The notes under the pieces are model-generated. The model was not told where the DNA came from and did no database searches. It saw nothing but the letters and a program-made list of their open reading frames with translations. A stretch of 64,000 nt of DNA from Pseudorhodobacter sp. MZDSW-24AT (lineage in GTDB: Bacteria > Pseudomonadota > Alphaproteobacteria > Rhodobacterales > Rhodobacteraceae). Positions 33 through 51,037 of the stretch are shown here, piece by piece. The stretch lies in contig NZ_PGOI01000009.1 of NCBI RefSeq assembly GCF_002794355.1, positions 124,001 through 188,000 on the forward strand, read 5' to 3'. The number at the start of each line of letters is the position of its first letter. Position 1 is the stretch's first letter. The position numbers and the translations under genes were made by a program.

Positions 33-66
33 CGCACATAAGTTCGCTAATCGCACGCTCTGTGCG
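33..66. promoter_or_regulatory. Operator-like element 1 (IclR type), upstream of dipeptide ABC operon
   Basis: Half-sites CGCAC (33-37), GTTC (42-45), CGCAC (52-56) and GTGCG (62-66) sit about 10 bp apart. The inner 15-mer GTTCGCTAATCGCAC closely resembles the operator I recall for PcaR/PcaU/PobR-type IclR regulators (GTTCGATAATCGCAC). It lies 33 bp before the substrate-binding protein gene. Confidence 0.7.
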
Positions 67-98
67 GGCGTTGTCGACCCAACTGGAGAGGAAATGCA

Positions 99-1676
99 AT
101 GAAAAGAAACCTGTTTCTGTCAACCGCGCTTGCGGTTTTGTCTATGGGGGCGGCTGCGCATGCTGAAACGCTTCGTTGGGCTTTGGCCGGCGATGCTCTG
201 ACCCTTGATCCGCACGCCCAGAACGAAGGCGTGACGATCATGCTGCAATCGCAGATGATGGAACCTCTGGTTTCGCGCGCGCCGACGGGCGAGCTTGAGC
301 CGACGCTGGCGACGGAATGGGCCGTCAAGGCCGACGATCCGACCGTTTGGGTCTTCAAGCTGCGCGAAGGTGTGACCTTCCACGATGGCGCGACCTTCGA
401 CAGCGAAGACGTCGTGTTCTCGATGGACCGCGCGCGCTCGGAAGCGAGCCAGATGAAGGGCATCATCACGTCGATCGCTGAAGTGCGCGCCACCGGGCCT
501 TATGAGGTTGAGATCGTGACCAACGGTCCGAACCCGATCCTGCCCGCCGCACTGACCAGCATCATGATGCTGGACAAAGGCTGGACTGAAGCCAACAACG
601 CCGTGACCGTGCAAAACGTGGCGGCGGGCGAGGTGACCTTTTCGTCGACCAATGTGAACGGGACCGGACCTTACACGCTGGTGTCGCGTGAAGCAGACTC
701 CCGCACGGTGATGCGTGCGTTTGACAACTATTGGGGCAAGGACACCTTCCCGCTGGCCTATAGCGAGATCATCTTCACCCCGATTCAGAACGCATCCACC
801 CGTGTGGCCGCGCTGCTGTCGGGCGAGCTTGATTTCATTCAGGACGTTCCGGTGCAAGACATCGACCGCGTGAAGGGCACGGCCGGGCTGAAAGTGGAAA
901 GCTCGTCCGAGAACCGCTCGGTCTTCTTTGGCCTGAACGTCAGCGATACGCTGGTGGCAGGCAACATCGATGGCAAGAACCCGCTGGCCGATCTGAAGGT
1001 GCGTCAGGCGATCAACATGACGATCAACCGCGATGCGATCCGCGATGTCGTGATGCGGGGGCAGTCGGTTCCGGCAGGCATCATCATGCCGCCCTTTGTG
1101 AACGGCTGGACGGAAGAGCTGAACGCTTACCCGGCACCGGACAATGACGCCGCAAAAGCGTTGCTGGCCGAAGCGGGCTATCCGAACGGCTTCCCGATCA
1201 CAGTGGATTGCCCGAATGACCGCTACATCAACGATGAGGCGATCTGTCAGGCGGCCGTGGGGATGCTGGGCCAGATCGGCATTCAGGCCCGTCTGAACGC
1301 CACGTCCAAGGCGCTGTTCTTCCCGCAGGTCAACGCGATGGAGACCGACTTCTATATGCTGGGTTGGGGTGTGCCGAGCTATGACTCGGAATACATCTTC
1401 AACTTCCTGTATCACACCCGTGACGAGTCCTTTGGCAGCTGGAACAGCACCCGCTATTCCAACCCGGAACTGGATGCCCAGATCAAGGCTATCGCGGCTG
1501 AAGTCGATCTGGCCAAGCGCGACGCGATGATCGCCGAAATGTGGGCGACCGCGAAAAATGATCTGGCCTACATCCCCGTGCATCACCAGATGTTGAATTG
1601 GGCGATGAAAGACGGCTTGACGGTGACGGTGGACCCGGACAATCAGGCGCGCGTGAAATACTTCGCGCTGAACTGA
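99..1676 (+). CDS. Dipeptide/oligopeptide-type ABC transporter substrate-binding protein (family 5)
   Basis: This is the periplasmic receptor of a Dpp/Opp-type importer. The 525-residue product has a Sec signal peptide with likely cleavage after AHA at residue 22, followed by the SBP_bac_5 fold. The opening TLRWALAGDALTLDPH and the later PNDRYINDEA region are typical of the family. The ATG is preceded by GGAGAGG. It is the first gene of a five-gene operon, and a strong hairpin separates it from the permeases, which should give it higher expression. Peptide, opine or other substrates cannot be told apart from sequence. A paralogous receptor is encoded at 39459-41066. Confidence 0.93.
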   Translation: MKRNLFLSTALAVLSMGAAAHAETLRWALAGDALTLDPHAQNEGVTIMLQSQMMEPLVSRAPTGELEPTLATEWAVKADDPTVWVFKLREGVTFHDGATFDSEDVVFSMDRARSEASQMKGIITSIAEVRATGPYEVEIVTNGPNPILPAALTSIMMLDKGWTEANNAVTVQNVAAGEVTFSSTNVNGTGPYTLVSREADSRTVMRAFDNYWGKDTFPLAYSEIIFTPIQNASTRVAALLSGELDFIQDVPVQDIDRVKGTAGLKVESSSENRSVFFGLNVSDTLVAGNIDGKNPLADLKVRQAINMTINRDAIRDVVMRGQSVPAGIIMPPFVNGWTEELNAYPAPDNDAAKALLAEAGYPNGFPITVDCPNDRYINDEAICQAAVGMLGQIGIQARLNATSKALFFPQVNAMETDFYMLGWGVPSYDSEYIFNFLYHTRDESFGSWNSTRYSNPELDAQIKAIAAEVDLAKRDAMIAEMWATAKNDLAYIPVHHQMLNWAMKDGLTVTVDPDNQARVKYFALN

Positions 1677-1698
1677 ACCTGATGTGATCGAAAAGACT

Positions 1699-1727
1699 CC
1701 GGCGGCTTTCGGGCCGCCGGGTTTTTT
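1699..1727 (+). terminator. Intrinsic terminator/attenuator between receptor and permease genes
   Basis: A perfect 8-bp stem, CCGGCGGC/GCCGCCGG with loop TTTCGG, is followed by GTTTTTT. It sits inside the operon just after the receptor gene, so it probably lowers transcription into the permease genes and leaves the receptor in excess. Confidence 0.8.
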
Positions 1728-1752
1728 GTCCCTTTGTGCCGAGAACACCTTC

Positions 1753-2730
1753 ATGCTCGCTTTCCTCATTCGCCGTCTGATCCAGTCGGTCGTTGTCCTG
1801 CTGGTGGTGGGCGCCGTGTCCTTTGGCATGTTCCGCTTCATCGGGGATCCGGTGAACAACATGCTGGGTCAGGAGCGCACGCAAGCCGACATTGCCGAGT
1901 TGCGGGACCGCCTTGGCTTGGACCGGTCGGTTTTGGTGCAATATGCGGTTTTCCTGCGCAACGCGGCGCAGGGCGATTTTGGCGTGAGCTATCGTCAAGG
2001 GCGGCCTGTGGCTGACATTATCGCCGAGCGCGCGCCTGCCACGCTGGAGCTTGCGGCAGTGTCGGGCGTGATGGCGCTGGTGTTCGGGATCGGGCTTGGC
2101 GTGATCACGGCCATCAAGCGCAACAGCTGGGCGTCCAGCGCGATCATGACGATCTCGCTGGTGGGGGTGTCCTTGCCGACGTTCCTGATCGGTATCTTGC
2201 TGATCTATGTCTTTTCGGTGCAGCTGGAATGGCTGCCCAGTTTTGGCCGCGGGGAGACCGTGCTGGTGGGCGGATGGTCCACCGGGTTCTTGACGCAATC
2301 GGGCCTTGTGGCGCTGATCTTGCCCGCCATCACGTTGGGCCTCTATCAGATGACCCTGATCATGCGGATCGTGCGGTCCGAGATGTTGGAAGTGCTGCGG
2401 CAGGATTACATTCGTTTCGCGCGGGCGCGCGGCTTGCGGGAACGCTCGATCAATTTCCGCCATGCGCTGAAAAACACATTGGTGCCGGTGATCACCGTGA
2501 CCGGCTTGCAGATGGGCAGCATCATCGCCTTTTCGATCATCACCGAAACGGTGTTCCAATGGCCGGGCATGGGGCTGCTGTTCATCAATGCGGTGCAGTT
2601 CGTCGATATTCCGGTGATGGCCGCTTATCTGATGCTGATTTCCGTGCTGTTCGTCAGCATCAACCTTGTGGTGGATCTGTTGTATTTCGCCATTGATCCC
2701 CGGCTGCGCATCGAAAGGGCAAAAGCATGA
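1753..2730 (+). CDS. Dipeptide-type ABC transporter permease (DppB/OppB family)
   Basis: Inner-membrane permease of the Dpp-type importer, 325 residues from the ATG at 1753. That start is chosen over an in-frame codon at 1684 because the terminator hairpin lies between the two. The protein has an N-terminal transmembrane helix, a periplasmic loop containing DRLGLDRSVLVQY, then a block of helices. The cytoplasmic EAA loop reads RFARARGLRERSINFRHALK and would dock on the ATPases. The next permease overlaps it by ATGA, so translation is coupled. Confidence 0.93.
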   Translation: MLAFLIRRLIQSVVVLLVVGAVSFGMFRFIGDPVNNMLGQERTQADIAELRDRLGLDRSVLVQYAVFLRNAAQGDFGVSYRQGRPVADIIAERAPATLELAAVSGVMALVFGIGLGVITAIKRNSWASSAIMTISLVGVSLPTFLIGILLIYVFSVQLEWLPSFGRGETVLVGGWSTGFLTQSGLVALILPAITLGLYQMTLIMRIVRSEMLEVLRQDYIRFARARGLRERSINFRHALKNTLVPVITVTGLQMGSIIAFSIITETVFQWPGMGLLFINAVQFVDIPVMAAYLMLISVLFVSINLVVDLLYFAIDPRLRIERAKA

Positions 2731-3644
2731 TCCGGCAGTTCTCGGCTTTTTGGCAGTCGGATTTCGGCTGGAAGTTCCGCCATTCGCCGACGGCGATCCT
2801 GTCGGCCTTGGTTACCCTTATCCTTGTCGGGGCGGCGATTTTCGCGCCCCTGATTGCCCCCTACAACCCGTTTGACTCCTCGAGCCTGAACCTGATGAAC
2901 GGGTTCTCGGCTCCGATGGCCCCTAATGCCTTTACCGGCGAGGTGTTCCTGCTGGGCACCGATGACCAAGGGCGCGACGTGTTCTCGACCATCCTTTATG
3001 GCATGCGGGTGTCGCTGTTCGTGGGGGTGCTGGCGGTGCTGTTCGGGCTGGTGCTTGGGGTGACGCTGGGACTGATCGCCGGGTATGCGGGCGGGCGCGT
3101 GGATGGGTTCATCATGCGCGTCGCCGATATCCAGCTGACCTTTCCGGCCATTCTGGTGGCCATGTTGATCTTTGGCATCGCCAAGGGGATCATCGCGCCG
3201 CAATACCGCGACCAGATGGCGATCTGGGTGCTGATCATTGCGATCGGGTTGTCGGACTGGGTGCCCTTTGCGCGCGTTGTGCGCGGGGCCACCATGGTGG
3301 AGAAGAACCGCGATTATGTGCAGGCGGCGCGACTGATCGGGCGCAAGCCAGTGGCCATCATGGTGCTGCACATTCTGCCCAACGTGCTGAACCCCATTCT
3401 GGTGATTGCCACGATTTCGCTGGCTTTGGCCATCATCGCCGAGGCGACGCTGAGCTTTCTTGGCGTCGGGGCTCCGCCGACGCAGCCCTCGCTGGGCACG
3501 CTGATCCGCATCGGTCAAACCTTCCTGTTCTCTGGCGAGTGGTGGATCCTGTTGTTCCCCGCCGCCACGCTTCTGGCACTGGCGCTGGCCGTCAACTCTT
3601 TGGGTGACTGGCTGCGCGACGCCCTGAATCCGAGGCTGAAATGA
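2727..3644 (+). CDS. Dipeptide-type ABC transporter permease (DppC/OppC family)
   Basis: Second inner-membrane permease of the importer, 305 residues. It begins with the short DppC-type N-terminal segment and a first helix, followed by the family motif GTDDQGRDVFS. The cytoplasmic EAA loop contains DYVQAARLIGRKPVAIMVLH, and a later stretch reads SFLGVGAPPTQPSLGTLI. It overlaps the upstream permease and the downstream ATPase by 4 nt on each side, a tightly coupled operon. It should form a heterodimer with the product of 1753-2730. Confidence 0.93.
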   Translation: MIRQFSAFWQSDFGWKFRHSPTAILSALVTLILVGAAIFAPLIAPYNPFDSSSLNLMNGFSAPMAPNAFTGEVFLLGTDDQGRDVFSTILYGMRVSLFVGVLAVLFGLVLGVTLGLIAGYAGGRVDGFIMRVADIQLTFPAILVAMLIFGIAKGIIAPQYRDQMAIWVLIIAIGLSDWVPFARVVRGATMVEKNRDYVQAARLIGRKPVAIMVLHILPNVLNPILVIATISLALAIIAEATLSFLGVGAPPTQPSLGTLIRIGQTFLFSGEWWILLFPAATLLALALAVNSLGDWLRDALNPRLK

Positions 3645-4621
3645 CACCTCCTCCTGTCTTGTCCGTCCGCAACCTTGTGGTTGAGATCCCGTCCCGCGCC
3701 GGGATCAGCCGCCCGGTCAACAACATCAGCTATGACATCGCGCCGGGCGAAATTCTGGGCGTGGTCGGCGAGAGTGGTGCCGGCAAGTCCATGGCGGGCA
3801 ATGCCATCATCGGCTTGCTGGACCGACCGGCGCATATTGCTTCGGGTGAGGTCTGGTTGAACGGCAGCCGCATCGACAATCTGCCTTTGGAAGACCTGCG
3901 CCGCATCCGGGGGCGTCAGATCGGGATGGTGTTTCAGGACCCGCTGACCTCGCTTAACCCTTTGCTGCGTATCGGGGACCAGCTGACGGAAACGATCCGT
4001 GAGCACCTGCCCGTGACCGCCGCGCAGGCGCGTGAGCGTGCCGTGGCCGCATTGGAGGAGGTGGGCATCCCGGCGGCGGCCGAGCGGCTTGACAGCTATC
4101 CGCACGAGTTTTCCGGCGGCATGCGGCAGCGCGTTGTGATTGCGCTGGCGCTGTGCGCAGAGCCCAGCTTTGTGATCGCGGATGAGCCGACGACGGCTTT
4201 GGATGTGTCGGTGCAGGCGCAGATCATTGCCTTGCTGCGGCGCCTGTGCCGCGACCGTGGCACCGCGGTGATGTTGGTCACGCATGACATGGGGGTGATC
4301 GCTGAAGCGGCGGATCGGGTGGCGGTGATGTATGCGGGGCGTCTGGCCGAACTGGGGCCGGTGCGTTCGGTGATCAATGCGCCGCGACACCCTTATGCCG
4401 ACGGGCTGATGGGGGCGATGCCGTCGCTGTCGATCGGGCAGCGGCGCTTGCGACAGATTCCGGGCGCCATGCCGCGGCCGTCGAAAATCCCGCCGGGGTG
4501 TGCCTTTCATCCGCGGTGTCCCCGCGCGGCCGATCCGTGCCGGGTCGATCCGCCGCCGACGATCCTTGATGATCCGCAAGGCCGCGCGGCCTGCTGGTTC
4601 CCGCTGGAGCATTCTGCATGA
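3641..4621 (+). CDS. Oligopeptide-type ABC transporter ATPase (DppD/OppD family)
   Basis: Cytoplasmic ATPase energising the importer, 326 residues. It shows Walker A GESGAGKS, the Q-loop in GMVFQDPLTSLNP, the signature FSGGMRQR and Walker B FVIADEPTTALD. The C-terminal extension has the paired-cysteine segment CAFHPRCPRAADPC typical of Opp/Dpp ATPases. It overlaps its neighbours by 4 nt at both ends. Partner of the second ATPase at 4618-5595. Confidence 0.94.
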   Translation: MTPPPVLSVRNLVVEIPSRAGISRPVNNISYDIAPGEILGVVGESGAGKSMAGNAIIGLLDRPAHIASGEVWLNGSRIDNLPLEDLRRIRGRQIGMVFQDPLTSLNPLLRIGDQLTETIREHLPVTAAQARERAVAALEEVGIPAAAERLDSYPHEFSGGMRQRVVIALALCAEPSFVIADEPTTALDVSVQAQIIALLRRLCRDRGTAVMLVTHDMGVIAEAADRVAVMYAGRLAELGPVRSVINAPRHPYADGLMGAMPSLSIGQRRLRQIPGAMPRPSKIPPGCAFHPRCPRAADPCRVDPPPTILDDPQGRAACWFPLEHSA

Positions 4622-5595
4622 CTGCCTTTGTCGAAGTGTCGCACCTTGGCCGCAGCTTTGATGTGTCAAAGCCTTGGCTGAACCGGGTGATCGAACGTTT
4701 GCCGCGCCGCAATCTGGTGGCGGTGTCCGACGTGTCTTTTCAGATCGAGGAAGGCGCGGTCTATGCGCTGGTGGGCGAAAGTGGTTCGGGCAAATCCACC
4801 ATCGGGCGGATGCTGGCCGGGCTGATGACGCCGAGCGCCGGAACGGTCAAGGTGGCCGGTGCCGATCTGCATGCCGATCCCGCGGCGCGCAAGGCGGCGG
4901 GCATTCAGATGATCTTTCAGGACCCCTACGCCAGCCTCAATCCGCGCTGGAAAGTGCGCCGCATCATCTGCGAGCCGGTTGTGGTGGCGGGTGGGGCCAC
5001 CGCTGGTTTGGCCGAGCGCCTGCTGGAGCAGGTTGGGTTGGCTGCCGAGGATGCCGACAAGTTCCCGCATGAGTTTTCGGGCGGGCAACGGCAGCGGATC
5101 TGTATTGCGCGTGCCTTGGCGGCCAATCCGCGATTCATCATCTGCGACGAGCCGACATCGGCGCTGGACGTTTCCGTTCAGGCGCAGGTTCTGAACCTGA
5201 TGAGCGATTTGCGGGATGAGCTTGGCCTGACCTATATGTTCATCAGCCATGACCTGACCGTGGTGCGTCATATGGCGGACCGGATCGGGGTGCTTTATCT
5301 GGGTCGGCTGATGGAAGAGGCGATGCCCGAGCAGCTTTTCGCCCGTCCGCGCCATCCCTATACCCAGATGCTGCTGGCGGCCGCCCCGTTGATGGAAGGG
5401 CGCACGCGCGAAATCGACTTGCCCAAGGGCGAAGTGCCCGATCCGATTTCGCCGCCGCCGGGCTGTGCCTTCCATCCGCGGTGTCCGTTCGCCATTGACC
5501 TGTGCCGCAAAGAGCGGCCCGAGTTGCGCGACGTGGACGGCGTACGGGTGGCGTGCCACCGGGCAGAGGATATTGTGCCGGCATCTGCGGCCTAA
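4618..5595 (+). CDS. Oligopeptide-type ABC transporter ATPase (DppF/OppF family)
   Basis: Second ATPase of the importer, 325 residues and last gene of the operon. Walker A is GESGSGKS, the Q-loop is IFQDPYASLNP, the signature is FSGGQRQR and Walker B is FIICDEPTSALD. The C-terminal segment CAFHPRCPFAIDLC is the usual Opp/Dpp extension. The operon ends at a GC-rich hairpin shared with the convergent aldo/keto reductase-RidA gene. Confidence 0.94.
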   Translation: MTAFVEVSHLGRSFDVSKPWLNRVIERLPRRNLVAVSDVSFQIEEGAVYALVGESGSGKSTIGRMLAGLMTPSAGTVKVAGADLHADPAARKAAGIQMIFQDPYASLNPRWKVRRIICEPVVVAGGATAGLAERLLEQVGLAAEDADKFPHEFSGGQRQRICIARALAANPRFIICDEPTSALDVSVQAQVLNLMSDLRDELGLTYMFISHDLTVVRHMADRIGVLYLGRLMEEAMPEQLFARPRHPYTQMLLAAAPLMEGRTREIDLPKGEVPDPISPPPGCAFHPRCPFAIDLCRKERPELRDVDGVRVACHRAEDIVPASAA

Positions 5596-7096: not shown

Positions 7097-7120
7097 CGCA
7101 CAACTGTGCGCATATTGAAC
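7097..7120. promoter_or_regulatory. Operator-like element 2 (IclR type) between divergent genes
   Basis: CGCAC (7097-7101), N4, GTGCG (7106-7110), N6, GAAC (7117-7120). It fills most of the 64-bp gap between the reductase-RidA and AcoX-like starts. The architecture matches elements 6 and 10. Confidence 0.65.
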
Positions 7121-7139: not shown

Positions 7140-8255
7140 ATGAAGATTGGTTTGGTGGTCAATCCGGTCGCTGGCTTGGGCGGGGCGGTGGGACTTAAGG
7201 GCACCGACGGCGCGGACACGGTGGCCGAGGCGCTGCGTCGGGGTGCGGTGGCGCAGGCCGGTGCCCGCGCCAGACGGGCGATGGCGCTCTTGGCGCAGCG
7301 TGTGCCGGGCGCACCGCTGTGTGTGGCCCCCGGCGCGCTGGGAGCGGATTGGGTGGCAGGTCTTGATCTGGCGGTGCAGACCGCGCCGCTGCCGGCACCC
7401 ACAGGCTCGGCCGAGGATACGCGGAGGGCGGTGCGGGCGCTGGGGGACTGTGATGTGCTGGTTTTCGCCGGGGGGGATGGCACGGCGCGGGATGTGGCTT
7501 CCAGCCTTGAAGGCACCACCGGTCTTTTGGGAATCCCCTGTGGGGTGAAGATGCATTCTGGCGTTTTTGCCATCTCGCCTGAGGCTGCCGGAACGGCCTT
7601 GGGCGAGATGATGTTAAACCCTGCGGCGATCAGATGGGATGACGCCGCCGAGATCATGGATATTGATGAAGATATCCTGCGCGCCGGGCGGCTTGCGCCG
7701 CGTTTGTATGGATATGCACGGGTGCCGCAGTTGCGCGCCCGGATTCAGGCGGCCAAGGGGGGGCCGCGCCAAGATGCGGGGCAGGCCTTGGCGGGTGCTG
7801 CTGCCGAGATCGCCAAAGGGATGGAGGCTGGCACCCTGTATCTGATCGGACCCGGCACCAGCGCGGGCGCCGTGGCGCAGGCGATTGGGCATCGGGCCAC
7901 CTTGCTTGGGACAGATGCCTTGCTGGACCACAAGATTATTGCGCGGGATGCCCGGTCTGCCGATCTTGAGCGATTGGCGCAGGGGCGCAAGCTGCGCATC
8001 GTTCTGGGCGTGACGGGACGGCAGGGGTTTCTGCTGGGGCGGGGCAATCAGACGATTTCCGAAGCCTTGATTGCCCAAGCCGGACGCGCGGGCTTGATCG
8101 TGCTGGCCACGGCGGAAAAGCTTGATGCTTTGGCGCAGCCCATGCTGTGGGTCGATACCGGAGATCCACAGCTGGATGCGGCCCTGTCGGGGTTTGTGCA
8201 CGTCCACACCGGCCCACGGCAGCGGCGACTGATACGAATTGGCGCGGCCGCATAA
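7140..8255 (+). CDS. ATP-NAD kinase-like protein (AcoX family)
   Basis: A 371-residue protein with the diacylglycerol/NAD-kinase-type nucleotide motif GGDGT at residues 111-115, and an N-terminal MKIGLVVNPVAGLGG strand-loop. These features fit the AcoX/COG3199 family, often annotated as ATP-NAD kinase and first named from acetoin clusters. Its substrate is unsettled, and no acetoin dehydrogenase genes are nearby. AGGGGGG precedes the ATG. The next genes, the split P-protein pair, begin 72 bp downstream with their own operator. Confidence 0.8.
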   Translation: MKIGLVVNPVAGLGGAVGLKGTDGADTVAEALRRGAVAQAGARARRAMALLAQRVPGAPLCVAPGALGADWVAGLDLAVQTAPLPAPTGSAEDTRRAVRALGDCDVLVFAGGDGTARDVASSLEGTTGLLGIPCGVKMHSGVFAISPEAAGTALGEMMLNPAAIRWDDAAEIMDIDEDILRAGRLAPRLYGYARVPQLRARIQAAKGGPRQDAGQALAGAAAEIAKGMEAGTLYLIGPGTSAGAVAQAIGHRATLLGTDALLDHKIIARDARSADLERLAQGRKLRIVLGVTGRQGFLLGRGNQTISEALIAQAGRAGLIVLATAEKLDALAQPMLWVDTGDPQLDAALSGFVHVHTGPRQRRLIRIGAAA

Positions 8256-8288: not shown

Positions 8289-8327
8289 ATAATCGCCTTA
8301 ATGAAATTCGAGATGAAGGAGCGCGTG

Positions 8328-42632: not shown

Positions 42633-42642
42633 CTTCCTTGGA

Positions 42643-43632
42643 TCAGCGACCCAGCGCGGCCTGAATACGCTCCAGATAGGCCTGCGCCTCTGGCTGGTCT
42701 TTCAGGATCACGTCCCAAGAAGCCTTGGCCTTTTCCATAAAGGGCGCCAGATCAGGCTCGATGATCTCCACCCCGGCGGCACGCGCGGTTTCAATTCCGT
42801 CGGCTGCCAGTTTATCATGCGCCGCAATCCCAACGGCGATCGACTCGGTGGCGGCGGTTTGCACGATTTCCTTCAGATCATCGGGCAGCGACTCCCAGAA
42901 GGATTTGGACAACAGGAAAACGGTGGTCGACTGGTGCACGGTCAGCATCGTGTAGCTGTTGACCGTTTCGTGGAACTTATCGGCCACCAGCGCATCGGGC
43001 GAGATTTCGATGGCGTCGACCACATTGTTCTGAAGGGCCATGAACAGCTCGCCATAGGCCATCGGGGTGGGTTGCGTGCCGAAGGCATTATAGGCCTCGA
43101 CAAAACCCGGGGTCGGCAGCACGCGGATCTTCACGCCCGCCAGATCGTCGACGGTTTCGATCCGAACCGGATTGCGCGATGCAACGCTGCGTTCATAGCT
43201 GGAGCCGAAGCCCAAGCCATACATGTCATACTCACCCAGCAGATCCATCATCTCGCGGCCCATGTCGCTTTGCAGCACTTCATAGGCCTGTGCCTTGTTG
43301 TCGAACAGGTAAGGCAAAGACAGGACGCGGTAGGCGGGCACCACTGTTTCAAGCGTCGAGCCGCCGATGAAACCGCCGGTCAGGATGCCGGTGCGGATCG
43401 ACTGAATGGCGCGTGTTTCGTTGCCAGCTTGCGCGCAGCACTGGATTTCCACTGTGATGCGCCCGCCCGAACGTTCTTCCATCAACTCGGAAAAATGGTT
43501 CAGGATCACCTGATAGGGGCTCTGGTCGCTCAGCACATGGGCGAGTGTCATGTTGTAGGTCTGGGCCGCTGCCGTGCCCGCCAGCATTACGGTGCTGGCG
43601 GCTGTGGCAATCAGTGTCTTGAAAGCATTCAT
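42643..43632 (-). CDS. TRAP transporter substrate-binding protein (DctP family), second system
   Basis: A 329-residue receptor with signal peptide MNAFKTLIATAASTVMLAGTA and mature YNMTLAHVLSDQSP. GVKIRVLPTPGF carries the conserved ligand-binding Arg. QCCAQAGNE holds a Cys-Cys pair where most DctP proteins have a Pro/Gly-rich stretch. It follows the small and large permease genes in this operon, the reverse of the first system's order. Confidence 0.92.
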   Translation of the reverse strand: MNAFKTLIATAASTVMLAGTAAAQTYNMTLAHVLSDQSPYQVILNHFSELMEERSGGRITVEIQCCAQAGNETRAIQSIRTGILTGGFIGGSTLETVVPAYRVLSLPYLFDNKAQAYEVLQSDMGREMMDLLGEYDMYGLGFGSSYERSVASRNPVRIETVDDLAGVKIRVLPTPGFVEAYNAFGTQPTPMAYGELFMALQNNVVDAIEISPDALVADKFHETVNSYTMLTVHQSTTVFLLSKSFWESLPDDLKEIVQTAATESIAVGIAAHDKLAADGIETARAAGVEIIEPDLAPFMEKAKASWDVILKDQPEAQAYLERIQAALGR

Positions 43633-43667
43633 CTAAAGTTCCTCCTGTGGACTGGTTTTCTTGGGCA

Positions 43668-44939
43668 TTATCGAAGCAGGGCCAGCGAAATGCTGGGGAC
43701 GTAGGTGATCACCATCAGGTTGCCGAACAGCACCGCCAGAAAGATCGCCAGCGGTCGCATCAGTTGTTCCATCGAGATTTTGGCAATGCCGCAGGCGATG
43801 AAGAGATTGACGCCCACCGGCGGTGTCACCATGCCCACCGCGAGATTGACGATCATGATCATGCCAAAGTGCACAGGATGGATGCCGTAGCTGGCGGCAA
43901 TGGGTGCCAAGATCGGGCCAAGAATGATGATGGCGGCGAAGGTTTCCATGAACATCCCCACACCGATCAAAAACACGTTGACCAGCAACAGAAAGATCAG
44001 GGGGTTGTCGGTCAGGGTGCTCAGCAAGCCGCCGATCAGTTGCGGCGCGCGCATCAGGTGCAGGGCAAATCCGAACATGGCGGCGAAGGCCACGATGATC
44101 ATCACGACTGCCGAGGTGACGGCGGCCCCGGCGAAAATGCGCGGCATGTCGCTGAGCTTGATCTCACGATAGACCACCACACTCAGGAACATCGCGTAAA
44201 CCACGGCAACCACAGCAGCCTCGGTCGCGGTGAAGATCCCGCCGAAAATGCCGCCCAGAATGATCACCGGCAGGAACAGCGACAAAGAGGCCCGCACCGT
44301 TGCCGCCCACACCCGGCGGGCGTAGGGACCAAGAACAAAGGCTTCGCGCTCGCCATAGCCTTTGATCGTCGAGATCACGATCACGGTGGCGATCAGCGAC
44401 AAGCCGATCATCAGGCCGGGCAAGAAGCCCGCGATGAACATTTCGGTGATCGAGACCCCTGTGGTGACGCCGTAGATGATCATCGCCACAGAGGGCGGGA
44501 TGATGACGCCCAACTCGCCCGAAGCCGCTGTGGTGGCTGCGCTGAAGGGGCGCGGATACTTTTGTTTTTCCATCTCGGGGATCAGCATCGAGCCCACGGC
44601 CGCCGCCGTAGCGGCAGATGACCCGGAGATCGTCGCAAAGAGCATCGACGTCAGCACGACGGCCGCCGCAAGCCCGCCCCGCACCCAGCTGAGCAGCGCC
44701 TTGGCCAGATCGACCAAGCGCTCTGCGATGCCCCCGAATTGCATCAGACGCCCTGCCAGCACGTAAAGCGGCAGCGCCATCAGCGTGAAACTGTCCAGCG
44801 ATTCAAAGACCACCTGCGGCACGGCGATCAGGGGAATCCCACGTTCGATCAGATAGGGCAGCGATGCCATCCCCAGTGCCAAGGCAATCGGCACGCTGAT
44901 GGCAAAAAGACCCAGCAGGATCAGGATCAAGGAAACCAT
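43668..44939 (-). CDS. TRAP transporter large permease (DctM family), second system
   Basis: A 423-residue, about 12-helix permease. MALPLYVLAGRLMQFGG, ISGSSAATAAAVGS, GIFTATEAAVVAVVYA and GMVTPPVGVNLF are the family hallmarks. It starts 3 bp after the DctQ-like stop and ends 35 bp before the receptor. Confidence 0.93.
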   Translation of the reverse strand: MVSLILILLGLFAISVPIALALGMASLPYLIERGIPLIAVPQVVFESLDSFTLMALPLYVLAGRLMQFGGIAERLVDLAKALLSWVRGGLAAAVVLTSMLFATISGSSAATAAAVGSMLIPEMEKQKYPRPFSAATTAASGELGVIIPPSVAMIIYGVTTGVSITEMFIAGFLPGLMIGLSLIATVIVISTIKGYGEREAFVLGPYARRVWAATVRASLSLFLPVIILGGIFGGIFTATEAAVVAVVYAMFLSVVVYREIKLSDMPRIFAGAAVTSAVVMIIVAFAAMFGFALHLMRAPQLIGGLLSTLTDNPLIFLLLVNVFLIGVGMFMETFAAIIILGPILAPIAASYGIHPVHFGMIMIVNLAVGMVTPPVGVNLFIACGIAKISMEQLMRPLAIFLAVLFGNLMVITYVPSISLALLR

Positions 44940-44942
44940 CGG

Positions 44943-45530
44943 TCAAATCTCCGGGGCGTCATCGGCGGCGTAACGGATGTCGCGGCCGTTCAGGTGGGTG
45001 TCGATTATCAGCGCCACCGAGTTGAGGATCATGAGGGCCGCCCCAAACGGCATGGCCCAATAGACGTAATTCTTGGTGAGTCCCAGAACCGGGCTGGTTT
45101 CTGTGCGGCCGAGGTCGACAAAGGAGAGTCCAACCCAGACCATCAAGGCGAAAAAGCCCATGCAAAGCAGGATCGAAAGATAGCGCAGAGGGATGCCCAA
45201 GCGGGGCGGCAGCTTGCGCACGCCGAATTCCAAGGCAATCATCTGGGCGTGTCGCACACCCACTCCGGCGCCCAAGAACACCATCCAGATCAACGCATAG
45301 CGGGCCAGTTCCTCTGTCCACGGGGCGCTGATGTTAAGGCCGAGAGCGGTCAGCAGGAAACGGACCGTGACCTGACCGAACACCGCGACGGTGACCACCA
45401 TCAGCAGAAGGCCGACCACGACTGTCACGACAGCGTTAACTGTGTCGATGGCCGAGACGATGCTTCGCAAGGGCGCGCTCCTTGTTCCGTGGCCGCTAGG
45501 GCCGGGGATCTGGTCGGATTTGCGACGCAT
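44943..45530 (-). CDS. TRAP transporter small permease (DctQ family), second system
   Basis: A 195-residue four-helix protein and first gene of the operon DctQ-DctM-DctP-ligase. WTEELARYALIWMVFLGAGVGVR is the DctQ core. The start at 45530 has only a weak RBS; a shorter form beginning inside the first helix is possible. Elements 8a/8b lie about 50-80 bp upstream. Confidence 0.88.
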   Translation of the reverse strand: MRRKSDQIPGPSGHGTRSAPLRSIVSAIDTVNAVVTVVVGLLLMVVTVAVFGQVTVRFLLTALGLNISAPWTEELARYALIWMVFLGAGVGVRHAQMIALEFGVRKLPPRLGIPLRYLSILLCMGFFALMVWVGLSFVDLGRTETSPVLGLTKNYVYWAMPFGAALMILNSVALIIDTHLNGRDIRYAADDAPEI

Positions 45531-45578
45531 CGCCGCGCCTCAAAACCTGTCTCTAGATTTGTTCACCAGAATTCATTT

Positions 45579-45612
45579 GTGCGCAATAGTTTCTTTTGTT
45601 CGCATATAGAAC
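45579..45612. promoter_or_regulatory. Operator-like element 8 (IclR type) upstream of second TRAP operon
   Basis: GTGCG (45579-45583), N6, TTTC (degenerate), N4, GTTC (45598-45601), followed by GAAC (45609-45612). The two 15-mers GTGCGCAATAGTTTC and GTTCGCATATAGAAC lie in tandem. Less regular than the others. Confidence 0.5.
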
Positions 45613-45660
45613 AATTTGCACGTGGTCGCCCCATATGCTCGGGTGCGCGGATCGCACGCG

Positions 45661-46125
45661 TCAGCGACGGCCGATGGGATGCATCCTGCTCCGGTGAAAA
45701 TCCTTCATCCCCGCAGCTTTCAAGGTCAGCCGCGTGATCTTCCATCCTTCCGGCACGCGTGCAAATTCATGATGATATTGCGCCCAGAGTTCGCCATCCG
45801 GCGCGCCGGAGTGATAACGGTGCCACGCATAGAGATAGCTGATGCTGCTGGCGGTATCGGCTGAATTAAAGCGGATTTCGATGTTTGACACATGGTGGCT
45901 TGTGGCGGCGAAAGTGCGTTCGAGGCCCGTCGCCACCGCGGCTCGGATCGCCTCTGTTCCAGTGAGCAGGGCGGCTTCAGGCCCGTAATCCACCACGGCC
46001 TCTGGGGCGAAAAGAGCGACAAGCGCATCTGGTTCATTGCGGTCGAAGTGATAGCAATAGGCGCGGATCACGGCTGCGATGGCCTCTCGGTCTACCAGAT
46101 GTCTGAGCGCAAGATCCGCGTCCAT
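45661..46125 (-). CDS. NTF2-like/SnoaL-like small protein
   Basis: A 154-residue cone-shaped NTF2-fold protein of the SnoaL-like type: an N-terminal helix (DREAIAAVIRAYCYHFDRNEPDALVALFAPEA has the family pattern), then alternating strands. Members bind or isomerise small hydrophobic ligands or serve as dioxygenase beta chains; nothing here decides between them. ATG at 46125 with GGAGG upstream. It has its own operator (element 9) and lies between the Pot-type and TRAP operons. Confidence 0.8.
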   Translation of the reverse strand: MDADLALRHLVDREAIAAVIRAYCYHFDRNEPDALVALFAPEAVVDYGPEAALLTGTEAIRAAVATGLERTFAATSHHVSNIEIRFNSADTASSISYLYAWHRYHSGAPDGELWAQYHHEFARVPEGWKITRLTLKAAGMKDFHRSRMHPIGRR

Positions 46126-46159
46126 CGGGGCTTCCTCCTTGATTTGTCGAGTTTCATTT

Positions 46160-46174
46160 GTGCGATTTACGCAC
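46160..46174. promoter_or_regulatory. Operator-like element 9 (IclR type) upstream of the NTF2-like gene
   Basis: The 15-mer GTGCGATTTACGCAC is a near-perfect palindrome of two GTGCG half-sites. It lies 35 bp upstream of the NTF2-like start and just beyond the end of the Pot-type permease gene. Confidence 0.6.
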
Positions 46175-46180
46175 AGTTGT

Positions 46181-46978
46181 TTATTTAGCGGATGGCCAAA
46201 ACAGGGCGCGTCGAATGCCCAGCAGAGCCAAGACAATCAGGCCGGAGACGAATGTGCCGATCACGGCGATGGCGGGCACAAGGGGCGAATAGTTCGTGGC
46301 GGTGCGCGAAAACAGCCAGAGCGGGAGCGGCGTATCGGCACCGCTGGTGTAGACCGACAAGGGAAGGTTGGACCAAGACAGCAGGAACGCAAACAGCGCG
46401 CCGGAAAAGAGTCCTGGCCACAAAGCGGGCAACGTGACCTCGCGCGCCACCTGCCAGCGTGATGCGCCCAAATCGAATGCGGCCTCTTCCTGCGCCACAT
46501 CATAGCCGAACATCCGGATCGAGATCACCAGCGTGACGATTGGCACAATCCAGACGGCATGTGCCACCACCGCCGTTTTCCAGCTTGGCGCGATCCCCAG
46601 CGCAGACATCGAAAGCAGCAGCGCCAAGCCCAGCACCGGTTGCGGGAAAAAGATCGGCAGGATCAGGATCTTCTGGAACAGACTTCGGCCACGCCAATCA
46701 TAACGCGCATAGGCCATTGCCCCGATGGTCCCCAGAAGCACCGACAAGACAACCACCGAGACGGCAATCTGCAACGAAATCACATGCAAGGTGACCGTCG
46801 TGTAATCCGCTGCCGCGGCGCGGTAGGCATCCAATGTCCAGGTTTTATGGGGAAAACGCATGTACCGCGTGTTGGCCAAAGACGCGAGCACGACAGAGAC
46901 GATCGGCAGATAAAGCGCTGTCAGGATGGTGCCGATCCACACCGCCTTCAGCCAAACCGTGTTGCCTTGCGCCTTCAT
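46181..46978 (-). CDS. Spermidine/putrescine-type ABC transporter permease (PotC family)
   Basis: A 265-residue permease, the last gene of the Pot-type operon. Helices begin at WIGTILTALYLPIVSVVLAS; the EAA loop reads EEAAFDLGASRWQVAREVTLP, typical of PotC/YdcV. ATG at 46978 overlaps the upstream permease stop by 4 nt. The longer open frame starting at 47176 lies antisense-free but inside the upstream gene, so it is rejected as the start. Confidence 0.91.
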   Translation of the reverse strand: MKAQGNTVWLKAVWIGTILTALYLPIVSVVLASLANTRYMRFPHKTWTLDAYRAAAADYTTVTLHVISLQIAVSVVVLSVLLGTIGAMAYARYDWRGRSLFQKILILPIFFPQPVLGLALLLSMSALGIAPSWKTAVVAHAVWIVPIVTLVISIRMFGYDVAQEEAAFDLGASRWQVAREVTLPALWPGLFSGALFAFLLSWSNLPLSVYTSGADTPLPLWLFSRTATNYSPLVPAIAVIGTFVSGLIVLALLGIRRALFWPSAK

Positions 46979-47817
46979 CGCCGGATGATCCTGCCAAGGT
47001 CGATCCGGCGCAGCGCGGGAAACACCAGCGCGGCCGTCACAAGGATCACAAGAACCGTCAAGGCGGCGCCCATCGGCCAGTCTTGCGCATAGTTGAAGCG
47101 TTGCTCGATGGCGGCTGTGATAACCGTTACGGCCCGCCCGCCCAGAATAGCGGCTTCGGCATTGGCGCCAAGGCACAGCACGAAGGTCAGTAAGCCGCCA
47201 ACCAAAAGGCCCGGCGCCGCCAGCGGCAATTCCACCTCACGCAACACAGCCCAGCGGTTTGCGCCCAAATCTCGGGCTGCCTCGATGCGGTCGGCGGGAA
47301 TCATGGCAACTCCGAGCAGCATGGGAAACAGCATGAAGGGAAAGTGAATGTAGATCATCCCGACCAAAGCGGCCAAGCGTGTGTTCAAGATGGTCCCGAT
47401 CTGCACGTCGAACACAGCGTTCAAAGTGCCCGCAAGGATTCCGCCTCCCGGCATCAGGAACACGGAAAGACCGAACAGGCGCACGCTTTCGGAAATGAAG
47501 ATCGGCAAAGCGATCAAGGCGGTCACAAGGCTTGCCCATCGACCTGCATGATGATGCAAGATCTTCGCCGTCGGCCACGCCAGCAAGGCTGTGACAAGCG
47601 TTGTCAAGGCGGCGCCGATGATCGACCACATCAGGGGGCGCCCATACCCTTCGGTAAAGGCGCTGCGGTAATTCTGCAGCCCAAGATCGGCGGTCAGCGC
47701 AAAGCTGCGGGGCGGCATCAGGCTATACCATCCCACGATGACCAAAGGTGCCGCAAAGAACAGCAGCATCATCAAGATCAAGGGCATCGCATACCAAAGG
47801 CCGGGATTGCGACGCAT
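46975..47817 (-). CDS. Spermidine/putrescine-type ABC transporter permease (PotB family)
   Basis: A 280-residue permease beginning with a helix MPLILMMLLFFAAPLVIVGW. The EAA loop is IEAARDLGANRWAVLREVELP. It overlaps both the ATPase stop and the next permease start, showing a coupled operon. Partner of the PotC-type protein. Confidence 0.91.
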   Translation of the reverse strand: MRRNPGLWYAMPLILMMLLFFAAPLVIVGWYSLMPPRSFALTADLGLQNYRSAFTEGYGRPLMWSIIGAALTTLVTALLAWPTAKILHHHAGRWASLVTALIALPIFISESVRLFGLSVFLMPGGGILAGTLNAVFDVQIGTILNTRLAALVGMIYIHFPFMLFPMLLGVAMIPADRIEAARDLGANRWAVLREVELPLAAPGLLVGGLLTFVLCLGANAEAAILGGRAVTVITAAIEQRFNYAQDWPMGAALTVLVILVTAALVFPALRRIDLGRIIRR

Positions 47818-48854
47818 CAGGAATTGACCCAGACAATATCGGTTGGGTCAAAGCTGAAGCGGGCAGTGTCCCCGATCCGAAGCGTGGTGCCGTGACCTGC
47901 CGCAACTTCGGCGATCAGGGTGGCTGTCCCGGCGCGCAGGTGGAATTGAGTGCGGGAGCCCAGCATCAGTTTCTGGACGATGTGCGCGTCAAAGCAGAAT
48001 GTCCCCTCCGCGTCGCAAGACAGGGCCTCGGGCCGCAGCACGGCAAAGGTGCCTTTTGCATCGGGTGCGGGCAGCTCCAGATCGGCAAAGACCGTAGCAC
48101 CGCCCTGTTGCTGCACGGTCAGGATGTTCACCTCCCCCATGAAGCTGGCCACAAAGCGGTTCATCGGACGGCGATAAATCTCTTCCGGTGTTCCGATCTG
48201 CTCGAACTGTCCTGCGCGCATGATGGCGATCCGGTCAGACATCACCATGGCCTCTTCAAGGCTGTGGGTGATGTAGATAAAGGTTTTGCCGGTGCGCTGA
48301 TGCAATTCCTTCAGCTCCACCTCCAGCGTCTTGCGCAGACGGTAATCAATCGCCGAAAGCGGTTCGTCGAAGAACAAAATCTCGGGGTCAGAGCCCAAGG
48401 CGCGGGCGAGGGCCACACGCTGACGCTCACCGCCAGAGCATTGGGTCACCGGTCGGGGGTAATAATCCTCGGGCAGGCGCACAAGCCGCAGCAGTTCAAG
48501 CGCCCGTGCGCGGCGCGCTTCCGGGGCCACGCCTTTCATCTTCATAGCAAATTCAATGTTCTGTCCAACCGTGCGGTGGTCGAACAGCGCCAAGGATTGA
48601 AAGACCATAGCGGTTGGGCGCCGATTGGCCGGTGTCTCGGTGATGTCCTGCCCGCGCAGGGTCAGGCGGCCTGCCGACGGGGCATCCAGCCCCGCCAGCA
48701 ATCGCACCAAAGACGACTTCCCGCTGCCAGATGGCCCGACAATCGTGAAGAACTCACCTTCCCGAATGTCGATCGAGATATCGTTGACTGCGGTCGTCTT
48801 GCCGAAACGTTTGGTCAGACCCGTCAGCGAGAGGGCCGCCGGGGAATGCGCCAT
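47817..48854 (-). CDS. Spermidine/putrescine-type ABC transporter ATPase (PotA family)
   Basis: A 345-residue ATPase: Walker A GPSGSGKS, Q-loop MVFQSLALFDH, signature CSGGERQR (Cys in place of the usual Leu), Walker B ILFFDEPLSAID, H-loop IYITHSLEE. A TOBE-type C-terminal domain follows. It lies 3 bp after the receptor stop. Confidence 0.92.
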   Translation of the reverse strand: MAHSPAALSLTGLTKRFGKTTAVNDISIDIREGEFFTIVGPSGSGKSSLVRLLAGLDAPSAGRLTLRGQDITETPANRRPTAMVFQSLALFDHRTVGQNIEFAMKMKGVAPEARRARALELLRLVRLPEDYYPRPVTQCSGGERQRVALARALGSDPEILFFDEPLSAIDYRLRKTLEVELKELHQRTGKTFIYITHSLEEAMVMSDRIAIMRAGQFEQIGTPEEIYRRPMNRFVASFMGEVNILTVQQQGGATVFADLELPAPDAKGTFAVLRPEALSCDAEGTFCFDAHIVQKLMLGSRTQFHLRAGTATLIAEVAAGHGTTLRIGDTARFSFDPTDIVWVNS

Positions 48855-48857
48855 ACC

Positions 48858-50051
48858 TTAGCCCCGTGCGCGCATTGCTGCGGAATAGATGTCATACAGG
48901 CGGTCGTAGTCCGGAACGATGTCGAATTCGACAGCATTCGCGATACGCTCGTCAAACTCGTCCCATTGGATGGCGGCCAGTTCCTCTGTCGAGAAGCGCG
49001 CCATCAGATCGGGGTTTGCCATCTGGGCCACCGGCTGGAAGTTGCCATTGCCGCGCGCCACAATCTCTGCGGCGTCCGGGGTGGTGATGAACTCAAGGAA
49101 ATCGAACGCCGCATCCAAGGGATCGGGATTGTTGACGGCCGAGTTGATCTCGATCCAGTTGATCCCGCCTTTTCCATCCGCCGGGCCCGAATTCGGCGTG
49201 ATGGCATAGAGATTGCTCACCCCCTCTAGGCGCGCGGCGGCGGTGGTATAGGTGCCGCCCGTGAAATACAGGTCTATCTCACCATTCAGGATGGCCAGAT
49301 TCAACTGAACGAAATCGGTTGTGATCAGCTTTGCGTTCTGAATCCAGCGCTTGGCGGTCTCCTCGAACCGCGCCACTTCTTCGTCGGTCTTGACCTTGAA
49401 CGGGTGAACCCCTGCGCCCATGCAGATGTCCATCACGTTCCAGTCTTCATAGGCCAAAATCCCGTAGCGGCCTGCGAAATCCGGGTTGTTGAACAGATCC
49501 CAGCCTTCATCCTTGGCCAGCTCCGGCGAGATCACATCGGAATTGACAACGAAATCAAAGGTTTCATAGCGTTGCACCACGCCCAGAAGATGGTTGCCAT
49601 CCTCGCTCATGGCCCATGGGTAGGGCGCTGCAAACTTTGGCTTCATCTGCGCATAAAGCGGTTCAAAGCGGTCACGGGGCAGCTCGCGGATCAGTCCGGC
49701 AGGCCACATTTCACCGCGCGCCCAAGGGTTGTTGACGTTGATGAAATCCCAGACCGAGGTTTCGCCGGCGCGCAGGCGGTTTACCGAACTCGGGTCGGAA
49801 ATATGGATCTCATAGCGAATGTCGCCGCCTGTCTGCTCTTTCCACAGCGCCAGCAGGCGCGGATCGGCATAGGCGTCCCATGTCAGCAGAGAGAGCGGCC
49901 GCGATTGGGCCGCTGCCATGCGCGGCAGGCCAGCGGCCGCGACGCCAGCACCCAGCCCTTGCATGAATTTGCGGCGGGTGACGGAATGCTGCATCGGCGT
50001 GCGCAGCGGGTTGCGGGATGCCATCTGGCGCAGAATAAGGTCGCTGGTCAT
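48858..50051 (-). CDS. Spermidine/putrescine-type ABC transporter substrate-binding protein (PotD family), Tat-exported
   Basis: A 397-residue receptor. The N-terminus has a clear twin-arginine signal, VTRRKFMQGLGAG, with cleavage likely after RMAAA at about residue 48. PotD-type motifs include LSLLTWDAYADPRLL and DFINVNNPWAR. The ATG at 50051 follows AGGAGG; a GTG-type upstream codon at 50078 would read through the operator. It heads the receptor-ATPase-permease-permease operon. The ligand is probably an amine or amino acid derivative. Confidence 0.91.
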   Translation of the reverse strand: MTSDLILRQMASRNPLRTPMQHSVTRRKFMQGLGAGVAAAGLPRMAAAQSRPLSLLTWDAYADPRLLALWKEQTGGDIRYEIHISDPSSVNRLRAGETSVWDFINVNNPWARGEMWPAGLIRELPRDRFEPLYAQMKPKFAAPYPWAMSEDGNHLLGVVQRYETFDFVVNSDVISPELAKDEGWDLFNNPDFAGRYGILAYEDWNVMDICMGAGVHPFKVKTDEEVARFEETAKRWIQNAKLITTDFVQLNLAILNGEIDLYFTGGTYTTAAARLEGVSNLYAITPNSGPADGKGGINWIEINSAVNNPDPLDAAFDFLEFITTPDAAEIVARGNGNFQPVAQMANPDLMARFSTEELAAIQWDEFDERIANAVEFDIVPDYDRLYDIYSAAMRARG

Positions 50052-50063: not shown

Positions 50064-50087
50064 GTTCGCATTGCGCACTGCCGTGCG
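50064..50087. promoter_or_regulatory. Operator-like element 10 (IclR type) upstream of the Pot-type operon
   Basis: GTTC (50064-50067), N6, CGCAC (50074-50078), N4, GTGCG (50083-50087). Contains the same GTTCGCATTGCGCAC 15-mer as element 7. It lies 13 bp upstream of the receptor start and overlaps where an initiating polymerase would sit. Confidence 0.72.
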
Positions 50088-50278
50088 TTATTGATTCATT
50101 GAACTATCATCGCCCCCCTGCAATTTTTCAACGAAATTTTTCGACCGCCCGTGGTCATTTTTCGCCGCCATGCTTTGGAGTGCGGATTTGGCCATATTTT
50201 TGAGGGTGTCACGGTTCCGAGACGTAGGGCGACAGGGCTGGGAGGGCGTTACCCCTATTTATCTCACTTGCTCAGCGT

Positions 50279-50302
50279 CTTCGCATCGTGAACAGATGTG
50301 CG
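50279..50302. promoter_or_regulatory. Operator-like element 11 (IclR type) upstream of the isochorismatase gene
   Basis: CTTC (50279-50282, degenerate), N6, TGAAC (50289-50293), N4, GTGCG (50298-50302), 46 bp before the isochorismatase start. Between elements 10 and 11 (50088-50278) I see only AT-richer sequence consistent with divergent promoters and no gene. Confidence 0.55.
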
Positions 50303-50347
50303 GATAGGTGGCGCCATTGGCGTCCTCTCTGGCTTCCGAGGATCATC

Positions 50348-51004
50348 ATGTCATCATTGTTTCTGTCCACCACATCGCGGGATATTCCCATCGTCCCGGC
50401 CCGCGCAGCGCTTCTTTTCATCGATGTGCAGAACTTTTCGTGTCACCCTGATGGTGGCGAGTGGGCAATGATGCCGCCCGCTGAACGGGCCGCCAAACGC
50501 GACTCGTTTCTCGCTCATCTGCAATCAGAGGTGATTCCGCGCATGCAGCGCCTGCAAAAGGCCGCGCGTGAGGCCGGACTCGAGGTTTTGTATACGACCA
50601 TCGAAAGCCTGACGCTGGACGGGCGCGACCGCAGCTTGGACTACAAGATCAGTGGCTTCAACGTGCCAAAAGGATCTTGGGATGGAAAGGTGCTGGACGC
50701 CATCGCGCCGCAAGGGGATGAGATTGTCCTGCCGAAATCATCGTCCAGCGTCTTTGTCTCGACCCACATTGATTACATCCTTCGCAATCTCGGTGTTCAG
50801 CAACTGATCATCTCGGGGGTGCTGACGGATCAATGTGTGGAAAGCGCGATTCGGGATGCGTGCGATCTTGGCTATCTAGTGACCCAAGTCACCGATGCCT
50901 GTGCCACCTTTGGTGAGGCGCGACAGGCGGCTTCGCTGTCGGCGATCCGGGGGTATTGCCGCCAAGTCACCACGGATGCGCTGGTGGCAGAGTTAAGCGC
51001 GTGA
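50348..51004 (+). CDS. Isochorismatase-like cysteine hydrolase
   Basis: A 218-residue hydrolase of the isochorismatase/nicotinamidase superfamily with the full catalytic triad: Asp26 (FIDVQN), Lys130 (LPKSSSS) and Cys163 (LTDQCVES). Such enzymes split amides, ureides (biuret, N-carbamoyl compounds) or vinyl ethers. ATG at 50348 is supported by GAGGATC. Divergent from the Pot-type operon; amide hydrolysis of an imported amine derivative would fit the context. Confidence 0.88.
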   Translation: MSSLFLSTTSRDIPIVPARAALLFIDVQNFSCHPDGGEWAMMPPAERAAKRDSFLAHLQSEVIPRMQRLQKAAREAGLEVLYTTIESLTLDGRDRSLDYKISGFNVPKGSWDGKVLDAIAPQGDEIVLPKSSSSVFVSTHIDYILRNLGVQQLIISGVLTDQCVESAIRDACDLGYLVTQVTDACATFGEARQAASLSAIRGYCRQVTTDALVAELSA

Positions 51005-51013
51005 GGTGATTTT

Positions 51014-51037
51014 GGGCGTTGTGCGAACTTTAGTGCG
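51014..51037. promoter_or_regulatory. Operator-like element 12 (IclR type) upstream of deacetylase operon
   Basis: GGGCG (51014-51018, one mismatch), N6, GAAC (51025-51028), N4, GTGCG (51033-51037). It lies between the isochorismatase stop and the deacetylase start. A GTTC-N7-GAAC sequence at 51098-51112 may be an additional weak site. Confidence 0.55.

Follow-up and report, generated by a model that had tools for sequence, protein, structure and literature searches.

A three-half-site operator recurs across a 54-kb gene island of Pseudorhodobacter that very probably forms one IclR-family regulon

Predicted operators in the island

The window of this study is the whole stretch of DNA analysed, 64,000 nucleotides of Pseudorhodobacter sp. 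MZDSW-24AT (C26:124001-188000 of a 3.86-Mb genome); one further site, at -2629, is numbered upstream of window position 1. A 54-kb island of ~50 genes, counted from this site, carries 13 predicted operators, placed before nearly every operon, and is probably one system. Operon membership was assigned from strand and spacing. An original prediction had described twelve of these elements at operon heads and at shared divergent promoters, and the placements agree with that description (e.g. operators 4, 5 and 6 are divergent). The elements are listed below; scores in bits are those of the weight matrix described in the next section, and relatives are counted when a site of at least 12 bits lies at the orthologous place.

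-2629, upstream of the window: new operator, at an M20 amidohydrolase/M24 peptidase pair; among the top 12 weight matrix matches.
33-56, minus strand: operator 1, upstream of the oligopeptide-type ABC operon (99-5595); exact three-box match; 26.4 bits; 4/4 relatives.
7097-7120, minus strand: operator 2, between aldo-keto reductase/RidA (minus) and the AcoX/NAD-kinase-like gene (plus); 26.3 bits; 4/4 relatives.
8265-8288, plus strand: operator 3, upstream of gcvPA-gcvPB; exact 23-mer; 20.4 bits; 4/4 relatives.
15344-15367, plus strand: operator 4, between the divergent genes for an OYE-type flavin oxidoreductase (OYE; minus) and a TIM-barrel epimerase-like protein (TIM; plus); exact; 21.0 bits.
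17090-17113, minus strand: operator 5, between a divergent SDR gene (minus) and the genes for a 3-hydroxyacyl-CoA dehydrogenase-like protein (HADH), a SoxA-like protein and an FAD oxidase (plus); 34.3 bits.
21892-21915, minus strand: operator 6, between the divergent IclR gene (minus) and the sugar-type ABC binding-protein operon (plus); 37.1 bits.
41141-41164, plus strand: operator 7, upstream of the second oligopeptide-type ABC operon and M24 peptidase (minus); exact 23-mer; 29.4 bits.
41207-41221, no strand assigned: second two-box element in the oppA2 promoter region, TGAAC and GTTCG everted; both boxes invariant in the host and 2/2 aligned relatives.
45579-45612, plus strand: operator 8, with a degenerate middle box, upstream of TRAP transporter 2 and the glutamine-synthetase-like gene (minus); 9.2 bits.
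46160-46183, plus strand: operator 9, upstream of a SnoaL-like gene (minus); 13.2 bits; 3/3 covered relatives.
50064-50087, plus strand: operator 10, upstream of the spermidine/putrescine-type ABC operon (minus); exact 23-mer; 24.9 bits; 3/3 covered relatives.
50279-50302, plus strand: operator 11, upstream of an isochorismatase-like amidohydrolase gene (plus; likely start 50348); 20.7 bits.
51014-51037, plus strand: operator 12, upstream of a polysaccharide-deacetylase-like gene (plus); ~12.0 bits, just under 12; 2/3 relatives.

Operator 4 was identical at 24/24 bases in 4/4 relatives. Operator 7 was present in both relatives that have the M24-opp2 module (2/2), and genome G009 lacked module and operator together. 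The low score of operator 8 is due to its degenerate middle box; its sequence GTGCGCAATAGTTTCTTTTGTTCG was invariant in the host genome and 3/3 aligned relatives, and it is counted as a likely operator of the genes for TRAP transporter 2 and the glutamine-synthetase-like protein. Operator 10 adjoins the likely ribosome-binding site of its operon.

Motif counts and weight matrix scan

The operator consists of three half-sites of alternating direction, GTKCG-N5-YGMAC-N4-GTKCG, whose starts are spaced 10 and then 9 bp apart. Box 2 pairs with box 1 in inverted orientation (GTKC-N7-GMAC) and with box 3 in everted orientation (GMAC-N4-GTKC). The island sites thereby have the layout used to recognize three-box IclR operators (GTYC-N7-GRAC-N3/4-GTYC, alternating direction). 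The pattern GTGCG-N6-GAAC-N4-GTGCG, with at most two mismatches, occurred 8 times in the window against 1.41 expected, and 0 of 100 shuffles reached 8. The scan also bore out the full three-half-site matches of elements 1 and 4 and the 15-mer common to elements 7 and 10.

The exact 23-mer GTKCG-N5-YGMAC-N4-GTKC occurred 7 times genome-wide. Six of the seven lie within 53 kb (C26:121371-174086; binomial p ~4e-11), including one a short way before the window begins, and contig C20 holds the seventh. When up to one mismatch was allowed, the genome had 35 matches, 13 in the island (one of which, at 51381, is intragenic) and 22 outside. The reversed-pattern control gave 22 matches for the whole genome, as many as lie outside the island. 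The two-box 15-mer alone was not enriched (28 places in the genome, 7 of them in the window, vs 46 for its control), which indicates that the third box matters. About 97% of the span is coding when open reading frames (ORFs) are taken at full extent, yet the operators avoid coding DNA. Operator 9 runs 3 bases into a stop codon, and operator 11 overlaps its ORF only with the GTG start at 50288, not with the ATG at 50348.

A weight matrix was trained on 34 non-coding sites from 18 of 20 distant ortholog loci (L023-L042), with the genus of the window excluded. The training sites came from the gap between the IclR and ugpB genes (17), the SDR/HADH gap (16) and the OYE/TIM gap (1); in 3 cases a site repeats an operator already counted, read on the opposite strand. 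Operators 5 and 6 belong to promoter classes used in training and are not independent tests; the other operators are. When 124 kb around and including the window were scanned, the top 12 matches (-2629, 33, 7097, 8265, 15344, 17090, 21892, 41141, 46160, 50064, 50279 and 51014) were 11 of the 12 previously noted elements and the new site; the next four overlapped these. Eleven sites reached at least 12 bits (51014 fell just short), compared with a mean of 0.6 and a maximum of 1 in 20 first-order Markov simulations. At 16 bits or more there were ten sites against a simulation mean of 0.1, one simulation holding a single 21.8-bit match. The column-reversed matrix gave 0 matches in the same 124 kb. 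No match of at least 12 bits was found in 51038-64000 or in the following 20 kb, in agreement with the prediction that the metH-nrd region carries no such element. The twelve-element motif proposed earlier was upheld by the counts against shuffles, the genomic clustering and the weight matrix, and matches concentrate in this island.

Conservation in relatives and distant loci

Sites of at least 12 bits were found at orthologous places in genus relatives G006 (11/12), G009 (9/11), G004 (11/12) and G013 (6/6 covered). A scan with the IclR protein, taking one genome per species, yielded 24 ortholog loci (417,579 bases). These held 50 matches with at most one mismatch, compared with 0 for the reversed pattern. 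In 19 of the 24 loci such a match lies directly upstream of the IclR gene. The misses are L023, which has no upstream sequence in the locus, L032, L039, L041 and L042, and the last three have more changed copies in the alignment. The SDR/HADH gap, the place of operator 5, had a match in 19 of 21 loci; L040 and L042 missed, again with more changed copies. In the OYE/TIM gap 5 of 18 loci reached this level, the remaining 13 having TAAC in place of GAAC. The other 7 of the 50 matches were 3 opposite-strand readings of the same operators and 4 intragenic matches. When promoters of the ortholog loci were aligned, the operator was their best-kept part.

The IclR-family regulator and its link to the sites

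The regulator gene lies beside operator 6:

20886-21764, minus strand: P0001, IclR-family regulator of 292 aa (Pfam IclR_C and HTH_IclR; NCBIfam TIGR02431), the proposed reader of all operators.

P0001 belongs to the IclR family by its HTH_IclR and IclR_C domains (53.7 and 128.7 bits; cut-offs 22 and 24). It also passed the NCBIfam model TIGR02431 pcaR_pcaU, which covers PcaR, PcaU and PobR (293.1 bits vs cut-off 284.75); the comparison with PcaU/PobR-type operators made in the original prediction was apt in this respect. No beta-ketoadipate or aromatic-acid enzyme family was found among the island proteins scanned, which do not include every ORF. P0001 is therefore assigned to the PcaR/PcaU/PobR sequence subfamily only and is not named PcaR, PcaU or PobR.

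We counted as carriers of an IclR ortholog those genomes with a match at E≤1e-85, 12 of the 296 genomes of the family. The exact 23-mer was present somewhere in the genome of 12/12 carriers and 96/284 non-carriers (Fisher p 3.7e-6). In three of the 12 (G076, G183 and G265), some or all exact matches and the IclR gene are on different contigs; match positions of carrier G203 are not listed. In 10 of the 12 carriers (L009, L043-L051; 56-83% identity) the gap between the IclR and ABC binding-protein genes contains a site scoring 28 bits or more; these sites may share species with some training loci and are not independent of the matrix. The other two carriers, the host genome and G009, also have a site beside the IclR gene. 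Within the genus, carriers G004, G006, G009 and G013 held the exact pattern 3, 3, 6 and 4 times, with 3, 2, 3 and 3 of these being orthologous sites and the rest chance-like; 11 other genomes of the genus held 0 to 2. The clustering of the sites, their conservation and their co-occurrence with the IclR gene support a single regulon joining six transporters and ~20 enzymes. As judged from these genome comparisons, the island is very probably one IclR regulon, whatever the sign of control.

In a separate locus from another family (L010), two strong overlapping sites (31.4 and 23.7 bits) lie just upstream of the gene for an IclR homolog of 46-47% identity. From these sites, the operator motif may be older than this island.

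Promoters and mode of control

Sixteen promoters were examined with a sigma-70 -35/-10 matrix whose weights were set from general knowledge, so the promoter calls are rough. In 5/5 genomes the OYE promoter has a CATAAT -10 box, separated from a TTGNNN -35 box by 17 bp, that stops 2 bp short of the operator. At oppA2, a TAGCMT -10 box with TTTACA as -35 ends 4 bp before the operator (3/3 genomes), and at HADH the -10 box ends 11-13 bp before it (5/5). Spacers at these three promoters are 17-18 bp. The same layout was seen weakly at ugpB (4/4 genomes) and oppA1 (3/5); in the alignment of distant loci, the ugpB promoter keeps a TTGC, and its operator is directly adjoined by an AT-rich stretch resembling a -10 box.

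We consider it likely that a single repressor of the IclR family, the product of an island gene, uses all the elements as its operators. Because the operator lies just after the -10 box at the clearest promoters, this protein would be a repressor that a compound of the pathway releases. P0001 would be the repressor that binds all of them, and with three half-sites an operator could accommodate several dimers, or one dimer in either of two modes. Bound just downstream of the -10 box, the repressor would block RNA polymerase. A pathway compound binding the C-terminal domain would make it leave the operator, and the operons under the 13 operators (~50 genes, including six transporters and ~20 enzymes) would then be switched on together.

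Several observations weigh against this explanation. PcaU is an activator. PobR is likewise named an activator in PDB 5hpf, and the sign of control could be the opposite. Only 3 of the 16 promoters are strong and consistently placed, while 11 are inconsistent between genomes, found in one genome only, or unclear. Where operator 11 would be expected, 3/3 relatives lack a site of 12 bits or more and keep only boxes 2-3, and no operator was found in the gap shared by the FAD oxidase gene DAO1 and the DHDPS-like lyase gene DHDPS1. Three of eight loci of paralogous IclR genes (L014, L015 and L018) hold GTTGACATAWCGCACAAA near the gene start (12.7, 12.7 and 17.4 bits), and one of the three has a further 12.4-bit match. 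Our confidence in the explanation is not higher because it includes repression, clearly supported at only the three promoters.

The regulon and regulator may be the same and P0001 mainly an activator or a dual regulator that recruits polymerase with its ligand. This is clearly less probable, at perhaps one chance in a handful. It agrees with the fit of P0001 to the model that includes the activator PobR, with the 11 promoters lacking consistent strong -35/-10 boxes, as is often the case in activated promoters, and with the TIM promoter, whose best -10 box lies inside the operator in 3/5 genomes. However, the operator is downstream of a -10-like box and over the likely start site at OYE, oppA2 and HADH, and more weakly so at ugpB and oppA1.

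Release of a repressor is the preferred account of control, and other readers of the sites are unlikely. Another regulator, e.g. the paralogous IclR at C24:516974 (40% identity), or several paralogs sharing half-sites, is an improbable reader. Such a paralog is present in the host genome, half-sites are alike across many IclR proteins in Table 1 of PMC8222616, and GTTGACATAWCGCACAAA near paralog genes points to some overlap of specificity; it may be a related operator of the paralog itself. Against this, 5 of the 8 paralog loci (L011-L018, 40-45% identity), among them L017 of the host, have no match of at least 10 bits, and genus members with only a paralog-level match (G002, G008, G011 and G014) have 0, 0, 1 and 2 exact patterns, compared with 3-7 in the host and the four carriers. 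The paralog reading keeps its small probability because of the 17.4-bit match. Chance recurrence of short half-sites in GC-rich intergenic DNA, which would fit half-sites of only five bases, the unenriched two-box 15-mer and the control-level matches outside the island, was rejected on the shuffles, the clustering of six of seven exact 23-mers and the weight matrix scan, is opposed by the three-box spacing and the non-coding placement, and was refuted by conservation at orthologous promoters, so that its probability is negligible.

Gene content and possible substrate

The main gene groups of the island are as follows.

99-5595, plus strand: oligopeptide-type ABC transporter, 5 genes; Pfam matches on 3/5, the other two assigned by position and length.
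7140-8255, plus strand: AcoX/NAD-kinase-like gene, beside GcvPA/GcvPB.
8327-11287, plus strand: GcvPA and GcvPB, a split glycine dehydrogenase-like pair; NCBIfam equivalogs (398.9 vs 364 and 486.7 vs 441 bits).
21942-34361, plus strand: ABC transporter, DHDPS-like lyase, two SDRs, class III aminotransferase, aldehyde dehydrogenase and TRAP transporter 1; Pfam/NCBIfam on 11/12, one permease by position.
34415-50051, minus strand: M24 peptidase, second oligopeptide-type ABC transporter, glutamine-synthetase-like protein, TRAP transporter 2, SnoaL-like protein and spermidine-type ABC transporter; Pfam/NCBIfam on most, oppC2 and the small TRAP subunit by position.

The six transporters are two oligopeptide-type, one sugar-type and one spermidine-type ABC transporter and two TRAP transporters. 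The other products comprise M20 and M24 hydrolases, two FAD oxidases, and SoxA-like, isochorismatase-like and deacetylase-like proteins, together with RidA, the aldo-keto reductase, the AcoX/NAD-kinase-like protein, GcvPA/GcvPB, two DHDPS-like lyases, several SDRs, the OYE-type enzyme, the class III aminotransferase, the aldehyde dehydrogenase and the glutamine-synthetase-like ligase. Peptides or another substrate with nitrogen are suggested by the presence of amine oxidases, RidA, an aminotransferase and amide hydrolases, and the compound used by the island probably contains nitrogen. The nearest solved structures of the ABC binding protein, class III aminotransferase, flavin oxidoreductase and HADH-like protein carry broad or putative names only; the AcoX/NAD-kinase-like protein had no match to a solved structure at E 1e-5. 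The host genome also has a single-chain GcvP over the cut-off (C25:471112-473868), and GcvPA/GcvPB, taken together with the product of 7140-8255 (AcoX/NAD-kinase-like), have the appearance of a dedicated decarboxylase.

Tentatively, the island could be one undescribed catabolic system under one IclR switch, retained along with the operators in Rhodobacterales and in scattered other groups, namely Microvirga, Roseibium and Hoeflea, the last having more altered sites. It might degrade a nitrogenous compound, perhaps algal or plant conjugates or peptides, by way of a dedicated split GcvPA/GcvPB decarboxylase with its AcoX/NAD-kinase-like partner, apart from normal glycine cleavage.

Three features in and around the island were noted in addition. 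DAO1 (minus) and the DHDPS-like gene (plus), at 11301-13435, have back-to-back starts with a gap small for ordinary promoters. The arrangement recurs in 4/4 genus relatives and, with BLAST-end gaps of 2-110 bp, in 14 distant loci (L028 being left out as a spurious pair), and each gene may be transcribed across the antisense strand of the other, as in noncontiguous operons. A cobalamin riboswitch (RF00174, 119.3 bits) at 57489-57688 follows metH and precedes the ribonucleotide reductase region. A second MocA-like/oligopeptide-type ABC cluster is found upstream (L002:366-5166, window -19634 to -14834), with a weak 10.5-bit site at -19634; it may or may not belong to the regulon.

Comparison with known IclR systems

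The operators would tie ~50 genes, annotated by broad family names only, into one system with one switch. The purified regulator, or a reporter fused to one of the promoters, would offer a direct route to the substrate of the island, and the many operators form a natural experiment on the use of three half-sites by an IclR protein.

BhcR of Paracoccus denitrificans has a role in the beta-hydroxyaspartate cycle. Like BhcR (PMC11323563), P0001 would be an IclR-family regulator of a local pathway, in a related alphaproteobacterium; unlike BhcR, it scored 127.1 bits with the BhcR equivalog NF045644, far under the cut-off of 350.

P0001 shares its NCBIfam regulator model with PcaU and PobR of Acinetobacter baylyi. 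For PcaU, PMC8222616 gives GTTCG/CGMAC half-sites, similar to those of the island, and an additional third half-site required for binding. PcaU and PobR serve the use of protocatechuate or 4-hydroxybenzoate, whereas no such enzyme family was found among the scanned island proteins, and the position of island operators over the likely start site at some promoters suggests repression.

Three-box IclR operators were predicted for 32 ortholog groups by Suvorova and Gelfand (2021, PMC8222616). In that study, the motif type is GTNCG-N5-6-CGNAC, with GTYC-N7-GRAC and GRAC-N3/4-GTYC sharing the middle box, and the inverted and everted pairs are read as two possible dimerisation modes. The island sites have the same alternating three-box layout and common middle box, together with an IclR-family regulator, so the kind of operator and the three-box design are already published. 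According to the same study, an IclR protein usually governs one or two neighbouring operons; of 181 regulogs, 98 contain no more than ten COGs, and the largest contains 55. In contrast to these typical regulogs, the island has 13 operators in 54 kb, and what is unusual here is the reach, ~50 genes under 13 operators.

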